64,000 bases of DNA from Sideroxydans sp. (GTDB taxonomy: Bacteria > Pseudomonadota > Gammaproteobacteria > Burkholderiales > Gallionellaceae). Both the position numbers and the translations under genes were made by a program. The notes beneath the pieces were generated by a model. The model saw only the letters and a list, made by a program, of their open reading frames with translations. It did not search any database and was not told where the DNA came from. Of the stretch, positions 36,825-37,387 are shown in pieces (within the stretch, counting starts at the first letter, position 1; every line of letters begins with the position of its first letter). Location: contig JAQTTU010000009.1 in assembly GCA_028710605.1 (NCBI GenBank), positions 97,588 through 161,587 on the forward strand, read 5' to 3'.

Positions 36825-36940
36825 CCGTCATACCGGCGCAGGCCGGTATCCAGTGCATTTATCAAATATGCCGTTGGTTTTGTCCGTGCCTTGCACGGGA
36901 TATTAAATTAACTGGATACCGGCCTGCGCCGGTATGACGG
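36825..36940. mobile_element. 116-bp terminal-inverted-repeat element, left of the GIY-YIG gene
   Basis: Perfect 30-bp inverted ends (outer part CCGTCATACCGGCGCAGG; the right end is the exact complement) flank a 56-base centre holding TTGGTTTTGTCCGTGC at 36874-36889. The same centre occurs in opposite orientation in the element at 37273-37387. It has the shape of a MITE; no transposase is encoded. Confidence 0.85.
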
Positions 36941-36960
36941 GAAATCAAAGAGGCGACTCG

Positions 36961-37251
36961 ATGAGCAAACAGCCGTGCGTTTATCTTCTCGCCAGCAAAC
37001 GCAACGGCACTCTGTATATCGGGGTAACTTCAGACTTGGTTAAGCGCGTGTGGGAACACAAGAATCACGTTGTTGACGGTTTCACCAAACAGTATGAAGT
37101 GGCGCAGTTGGTTTGGTATGAAGTGCATGAAACAATGGAATCTGCCATTCAGCGCGAGAAGGCACTCAAGGAATGGCAACGAAAATGGAAATTGAAGCTG
37201 ATTGAAGAGTTCAATCCAGACTGGAAAGATTTGTACGACTCGGTGTGCTAG
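36961..37251 (+). CDS. Small GIY-YIG family endonuclease
   Basis: A 96-residue single-domain nuclease. The first strand reads CVYLLASKRNGTLYIGVTSD (GIY-equivalent VYLL, YIG at 19-21), with R29 in LVKRVWEHK, the catalytic Glu probably E67 in QREKALKEW, and the closing IEEFNPDWKDLYD. This UPF0213-like group has no added DNA-binding domain. The gene starts 20 bases after one inverted-repeat element and its stop is followed within 22 bases by another in opposite orientation. It interrupts the spacing between the stress protein and cysS. The flanking elements could be its substrates, or it may simply have hitchhiked. This is inference. Confidence 0.9.
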   Translation: MSKQPCVYLLASKRNGTLYIGVTSDLVKRVWEHKNHVVDGFTKQYEVAQLVWYEVHETMESAIQREKALKEWQRKWKLKLIEEFNPDWKDLYDSVC

Positions 37252-37272
37252 GCCGTCATGCCGGCAGCGAGT

Positions 37273-37387
37273 CGTCATACCGGCGAAGGCCGGTATCCAG
37301 TTATAAAAAACAGCCCGTGCAACGCACGGACAAAACCAAGTGCATATTAATAAAACCGCTGGATTCCGGCCTGCGCCGGAATGACGG
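37273..37387. mobile_element. 115-bp terminal-inverted-repeat element, right of the GIY-YIG gene
   Basis: Ends CGTCATACCGGCGAAGGCCG and the imperfect complement at 37359-37387 (CTGGATTCCGGCCTGCGC...) flank a centre with GCACGGACAAAACCAA at 37324-37339, the reverse complement of the left element's centre. Extra partial end sequence lies at 37253-37272. It reaches to 22 bases before the cysS start. Confidence 0.83.

Follow-up and report, generated by a model that had tools for sequence, protein, structure and literature searches.

What does a small nuclease gene do between two inverted copies of a repeat? The question is raised by a locus of Sideroxydans sp. (Gallionellaceae), studied here in a window, the whole stretch of DNA that was analysed, of 64,000 nucleotides. 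A sequence-only reading had described a GIY-YIG gene bracketed by two MITE-like elements of 116 and 115 bp, the left one with perfect 30-bp inverted ends, set as an inverted pair, and these dimensions and this arrangement are borne out: the asymmetric spacer motif TTGGTTTTGTCCGTGC lies on the plus strand in the left element and on the minus strand (37324-37339) in the right one (Table 1). The ends of the right element are imperfect: 5 of 30 positions differ when 37273-37302 is set against the complement of 37357-37386. All four hairpin ends nevertheless fit one consensus without a mismatch, and shuffles of the window returned 0.00 matches at up to three mismatches. The ATG at 36961 lies 20 bases past the left element, as that reading had it; the distance from the stop codon to the right element, which it gave as 22 bases, measures 21 and contains a partial REP. 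The elements that were termed MITE-like are better named REP dimers. A separate insert lies within cysS at about 38400-38485, around residues 331-357; it reads VPSPSVPLPAGEGSQFPSPSGRGARGEG and matches itself on the other strand, and as this is where several relatives fail to align, it seems that a palindromic repeat was inserted in frame.

Table 1. Features of the nuclease locus and its paralogue (positions of the window unless a genome and contig are given).
Feature	Position	Strand	Remarks
glnS	34681..36360	+	conserved left neighbour
usp	36372..36821	+	left neighbour, in some relatives only
Left REP dimer, head-to-head	36825..36940	+	116 bp, perfect 30-bp inverted ends
REP end L1	36825..36854	+	CGTC tag, 8-bp stem ATACCGGC, 4-nt loop, CCA tail
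Asymmetric spacer motif TTGGTTTTGTCCGTGC	36874..36889	+	borders a small hairpin
REP end L2	36911..36940	-	same as L1 across 30 bp
GIY-YIG gene, Ssn-like	36961..37251	+	96 aa; E71/Q73 type
Partial REP, 5' half	37253..37265	+	immediately 3' of the GIY-YIG stop codon
Right REP dimer	37273..37387	-	115 bp; spacer in the opposite orientation to that of the left dimer
cysS	37410..38855	+	conserved right neighbour
GIY-YIG paralogue L065	G000:C15:11238-11522		K71 type, between CCCGC-type REP dimers

The REP ends follow a fixed order: CGTC comes first, then an 8-bp stem whose first bases are AT, then a 4-nt loop and finally CCAG as the tail. Both ends of the left dimer are predicted to fold as DNA at -8.6 kcal/mol each (z -3.8 and -3.9), and the whole dimers at -50.5 kcal/mol (left, z -13.2) and -33.8 kcal/mol (right, z -7.6). 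The Sideroxydans genome (G000) holds 121 ends of the CCGG type and, by the pattern used, 48 of the CCCG type; among the 100 ends listed of 121, 90 make up 45 head-to-head pairs, and 42 of these 45 are spaced 83-99 bp start to start. In PMC3733652, CGTC-1 REPs are described by a CGTC tag, an AT-initial 8-bp stem, a 4-nt loop, a CCA tail and a mostly head-to-head dimeric arrangement. The elements of the window share the first four features in sequence and in fold, and the 45 pairs among the 100 listed of 121 ends agree with the last. The same paper assigns dRS3 of Neisseria to CGTC-1 and states, as of 2013, that CGTC REPs apparently lack a transposase of their own, with 'only a few fortuitous associations' between them and such genes. 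A known RNA family was considered for the elements and rejected, all six Rfam matches lying below the curated cut-offs. A RAYT encoded in the same genome was likewise rejected as the enzyme serving these REPs: a REP lies within 300 bp at none of the five loci checked of ten Y1-transposase matches, and one Y1-transposase locus (L361) is about 0.9 kb from a REP dimer.

The dimers show variation of their own. Several of the copies L006, L008, L012, L020, L029 and L034 have a common outer sequence like AATCCATTAGGC with its complement at the other side, and some copies in this genome may have inverted ends that are longer than the REP. REP loops, in turn, look like targets for small elements; in the glnS-cysS interval of three congeners (L076 of G004, L072 of G023 and L075 of G013) a sequence of about 60 bp with CTACTAGCCATTCGACTAAGC sits inside a REP hairpin loop, and in G023 and G013 a further loop is interrupted by an insertion of another kind.

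The only profile match of the 96-residue protein is GIY-YIG (PF01541, E 1.7e-17), and an HUH (Y1) transposase domain is absent. The structure model is a confident GIY-YIG fold (pLDDT 89.9), in which residue 71 forms the end of a helix (59-71) that also holds E66, presumably the catalytic glutamate of GIY-YIG enzymes. A median dN/dS of 0.052 for 62 pairs of 12 genes shows purifying selection on the gene, and the nearest named relatives of the protein belong to Gallionellaceae, including Sideroxydans and Gallionella. NCBIfam gave no match near a cut-off, and a sequence search of the PDB gave three GIY-YIG matches only, all weak (E 0.019 to 0.19). A defence gene was discarded as a candidate, as PADLOC returned a single weak match (E 0.0005 over 34 residues). 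The paralogue in the same genome adjoins a gene that by eye resembles thrC, a neighbour that recurs at L043 and L044.

A GIY-YIG protein of Neisseria meningitidis, P0136, is 63% identical to the window protein over 93 residues; we take P0136 to be Ssn and the window protein to belong to the same family. Ssn reportedly (Nature Communications, 2025) is a site-specific single-strand nuclease of the GIY-YIG type that cuts at repeats and affects transformation. The two systems are alike in the single GIY-YIG domain of about 95 residues and in repeats that lie near the gene and in many copies in the genome; they differ in that the window protein is of the E71 type with CCGGC repeats and that its genome holds two paralogues and two repeat types.

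If the enzyme belongs to the repeats, its homologues should be flanked by them more often than control genes are, which the sequence-only reading had put forward as a check, and they are flanked far above background. At up to two mismatches, a REP-like match is close by at all of the first 12 loci (the window gene, the paralogue L065 and ten others up to L046). Named genomes were then scanned and the best 80 of at least 588 confirmed places kept; these lie mostly in metagenome-assembled genomes from Gallionellaceae, other Gamma-, Alpha- and Deltaproteobacteria, Nitrospirota, Chloroflexi, Elusimicrobia, Planctomycetota and others. Within this best 80 of at least 588, a REP-like match with at most one mismatch lies within 300 bp at 77 loci, and on both sides at 54; a few of the 77 loose matches form no hairpin, and L137 and L152 have no match of any other kind. 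The 0-250 bp next to the genes hold 189 matches (4.9 per kb), as against 98 in 574 kb from 500 bp on (0.17 per kb), a ratio of about 29-fold. Under a strict hairpin rule, 75 of the same 80 loci have a REP on either side and 48 on both. The wider set of 274 loci gives, by the strict rule, 180 and 118 loci, respectively, with a density of 2.76 versus 0.127 per kb and no hairpin at 94 loci; removal of five duplicate loci leaves 175 and 115 of 269. Several contigs end close to the gene, so that the counts are lowered. By comparison, remote GIY-YIG genes of the same genome and its relatives have a REP nearby at only 1 of 21 loci, and for UPF0213, the N-domain of UvrC, Slx1 and I-TevI, which have solved structures, no partnership with REPs emerged here.

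The flanking REPs come in two main layouts. At 74 of the 118 two-sided loci the nearest REP is on the plus strand upstream and on the minus strand downstream, so that the gene stands where a dimer would have its spacer; at 22, including the window, the order is minus then plus, as for a gene between two dimers. Measured from model-based gene ends, the upstream REP most often lies 14 or 16 bp away and the downstream one 7 or 10 bp. The link extends to whole genomes: among 276 genomes of the class, the gene was called at E <= 1e-25 in 59, and the REP pattern is found in 42 of these 59, missing in the other 17, and found in 36 of the 217 without the gene (odds ratio 12.4, Fisher p 4e-15, uncorrected for relatedness).

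Gene and repeat are coupled by a match between one base of the repeat and one residue of the enzyme. Stem base 3 was taken as the base following ATnCC, and 158 loci could be labelled in this way. Where the base is G, residue 71 is E in 48, N in 17, D in 4, G in 3, S, K and R in 2 each and T in 1; where it is C, K occurs in 57, H in 3, Q in 2 and N, S and G in 1 each; with A there are 7 Ala, 1 Ser and 2 gaps, and with T, 3 Lys and 1 Arg. The code is thus broken by Q, N, S or G at 5 of the 65 C-type loci and by K or R at 4 of the 79 G-type loci, and the 153 labelled loci that remain after removal of duplicates give the same picture. Column 71 carries 1.07 bits of information on the base, column 73 carries 0.64 and the other listed columns at most 0.35. 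Moreover, the nearest REPs of the two sides have the same base at 90 of 93 loci (shuffled mean 40.8, largest 55).

On the protein tree, the first set (120 loci, 101 labelled) calls for 11 base changes as against 26-41 in 300 shuffles, and the wider set (158 labelled) for 27 as against 52-69 in 200 shuffles. A tree built without columns 70-74 offers 18 separate C/G pairs: in 14 of them K sits at the C-type locus, in 1 at the G-type locus, and 3 show no difference (sign test, p 0.001). Six pairs on the same tree include an A-type locus, which carries Ala in 5 of them and Ser in the sixth. In the same pair test column 73 comes out slightly above 71 (N with C). The protein is short and the tree poorly supported, and confining the test to supported branches leaves one pair in the wider set and two in the smaller. 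Paralogues within one genome give evidence that does not depend on any tree. In the Sideroxydans genome, the E71 gene lies with CCGGC REPs and the K71 gene with CCCGC REPs; in G691, K occurs with CCT, N with CTG, K with CCC and A with CCA, the fifth paralogue being unread by the strict rule; and in G428, K occurs with CCC and A with CCA, with a third copy unread. In the other six genomes listed with multiple paralogues the hairpin is unreadable for most copies; the N and R copies of G599 both lie with CTG, and an R copy of G540 with CCG. As a side observation, the Ssn-like matches of G691 (six, five of them read) and G295 (15) are suited to tests of one enzyme against one repeat.

Counts of REP ends across genomes largely follow the same lines. 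Congeners with an E-type enzyme have 39 (G004), 47 (G009) and 24 (G023) CCGG ends and no CCCG ends, and G014 has 39 CCGG and 11 CCCG; in K-type genomes, CCGG and CCCG ends number 19 and 93 (G020), 2 and 8 (G006) and 6 and 14 (G012); in G000, which has both enzyme types, this comparison counts 117 and 48. G001, a genome 82% complete, is an exception, as it has a K71 gene yet 26 CCGG versus 3 CCCG ends. A looser hairpin rule, partly post hoc and leaving most of the previously unlabelled loci without a readable arm, found E or N with G at 5 of 6 loci, K, R or H with C or T at 11 of 13, A with A at 1 of 1, and T with A and F with G at one locus each. The rule also allows a prediction for Neisseria. 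The dRS3 repeat is a CGTC-1 REP and reads ATTCCC, which makes it CCC type, so that the Neisseria nuclease should have K71; the meningococcal protein P0136 has K71, as predicted.

The repeat type thus follows the protein type, and together with the flanking above background this bears out the association of enzyme and repeat that had been proposed for the window. Enzyme and adjoining repeat change together in several phyla, which makes it likely that each enzyme recognises and cuts its own repeat. We consider it probable that the GIY-YIG protein is the dedicated nuclease of CGTC-type REPs, likely cutting single-stranded hairpins, with the third stem base read by residue 71. We infer a contact of residue 71 with the stem base, in which the side chain would read the base of the partner strand: K, R or H opposite a purine, E, D or N opposite C, and A opposite T. 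Cutting of REPs by the protein is a prediction, and a single-stranded substrate is proposed by analogy with what is reported for Neisseria Ssn; the family is, in any case, a strong candidate for the enzyme of CGTC REPs.

What the cuts achieve is a further step, and one which we take less surely. By analogy, enzyme cuts may let the dimers spread, and the most likely course would be that REP dimers are non-autonomous elements which spread through these cuts, as has been proposed for GTAG REPs and RAYTs, while the gene itself would stay in place and be inherited vertically. The earlier suggestion that the enzyme acts on, or is carried by, the repeats accordingly divides: that it belongs with the repeats is supported, that it is carried with them as a unit is not. 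The comparison with RAYT/REP pairs that had been drawn for the locus is apt, its flanking elements being CGTC-1 REP dimers as described in PMC3733652. With the RAYT/TnpA-REP systems of PMC8266576 the locus has in common that a single enzyme gene stands between REPs of its own, that hairpin recognition has co-evolved and that REPs are dispersed in the genome; the difference lies in an HUH enzyme and a GTAG tag there and a GIY-YIG enzyme and a CGTC tag here. The fullest version, in which CGTC REPs, so far taken to have no enzyme, make up an independent system beside the first, their hairpin dimers are spread by a GIY-YIG nuclease in place of an HUH transposase, residue 71 fixes the base that is accepted and paralogues run separate repeat families, is put forward tentatively, with rather more doubt than belief.

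The same recognition could serve another purpose. The nuclease might act in DNA uptake or repair, where it would cut single strands that carry REPs and thereby control recombination, the REPs being kept as target signs and spread by other means, and we regard this as a real possibility, if not the probable one. It is in keeping with Neisseria Ssn, which is said to modulate transformation through its repeats, and with a ComEC-type protein (PF03772, E 8e-62) encoded in the genome of the window. It would also suit the REP-rich congeners that lack a close copy of the gene, with 72 (G003), 59 (G013), 83 (G017), 54 (G011), 39 (G016) and 25 (G018) CCGG ends in genomes that are 89%, 92%, 86%, 95%, 100% and 99% complete, respectively; REPs, it follows, outlive the gene or do without it, a point that counts against the dedicated-nuclease reading, as do the 94 of 274 loci with no strict hairpin and the genomes that have only the gene or only the REP pattern. 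Against an uptake role, REP dimers look as if they were dispersed as units, dimer presence at one locus varies among congeners, and Ssn-like genes occur in many lineages, some of which may not be competent.

A role confined to the gene's own control appears unlikely. Here, the flanking REPs would be the regulatory sites of the gene, the code would keep the enzyme acting on its own DNA or mRNA, and all other copies would be relics. The short, recurrent distances between REP and gene would fit, but the 121 ends of the genome, 90 of the 100 listed of them in pairs, would be left unexplained, as would the link between gene and REPs at the level of genomes.

The idea of a composite mobile unit, with the gene carried between two repeats, was raised by the sequence-only reading and draws on the position of the gene between two inverted dimers, and on its place in lieu of a dimer spacer at 74 of 118 two-sided loci. 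The chromosomal site speaks against it. The gene lies between glnS and cysS in the Sideroxydans genome, in all four congeners with a close copy (G004, G009, G014 and G023) and in seven of eight named relatives at >=84% identity, some of which may be the same species as the congeners; the sole exception, L101, lacks both glnS and cysS within its 5-kb flanks, and apart from L101 the whole unit was seen at the same site throughout. A relative with the gene at this place and without the elements would have pointed to chance, and REP sequence is present on both sides in five of five genomes, with insertions in G004 and G023. G014 retains of its left dimer a 30-base hairpin of the two outer REP halves (L070, about 3337-3366), as if the rest had been deleted between direct copies of ATACCGGC.

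Dimers also occur alone. At the same site the gene-less congeners G011 and G016 have a single dimer, as does G013 with insertions in it, and G020 has a dimer of the CCCG type; in G006, G007, G018 and G021, cysS begins 1 nt past the glnS stop. In G003 a REP remnant, CGGAATGACGG, stands immediately after the usp stop and before cysS (L074:1465-1500) and looks like a deletion scar, and the single-dimer state could have arisen from that of the window by deletion between direct REP copies. The single dimers of G011 and G016 and the remnant of G003 look like loss of the gene. The glnS neighbour varies: it is usp in G000, G003, G005, G011 and G016, by eye a small membrane protein gene in G013, G015, G020, G023 and G024, by eye an antitoxin-toxin gene pair in G008, and no gene in, for example, G006, G007, G018 and G021. 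Inspection by eye of 13 dimers revealed no target-site duplication. Because the gene is nearly fixed in its place and dimers occur alone elsewhere, the composite-unit reading is not supported; gene and repeats do not behave as one unit that hops, and carriage of the gene between the repeats is very improbable. Finally, that an abundant repeat and an ordinary gene are neighbours by chance, which the commonness of the repeats in this genome might suggest, is rejected as next to inconceivable on account of the enrichment and the specificity match in several phyla.

Our literature search, confined largely to open-access journal papers, brought up no publication that connects GIY-YIG genes and REPs. 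Both terms occur, unlinked, in passages of PMC9465073; the passages of PMC12306157 mention neither GIY, nuclease nor transposase, and those of PMC1564403, on the GIY-YIG superfamily, make no link to REPs. Compared with the CGTC-1 REPs of PMC3733652, for which that paper finds no dedicated transposase, the repeats described here have a GIY-YIG gene as their partner.

The repeat family was already known, and so, reportedly, was the enzyme family; the apparent residue-71 rule is the part worth testing. A question left from 2013, namely what enzyme acts on CGTC REPs, has a candidate answer in the GIY-YIG family, which ties these repeats to a family of nucleases that can be assayed with short oligonucleotides. 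The recognition rule is open to direct experiment, as exchange of residue 71 should change the preferred stem base. If the rule is true, repeat types could be assigned to their enzymes from sequence alone.
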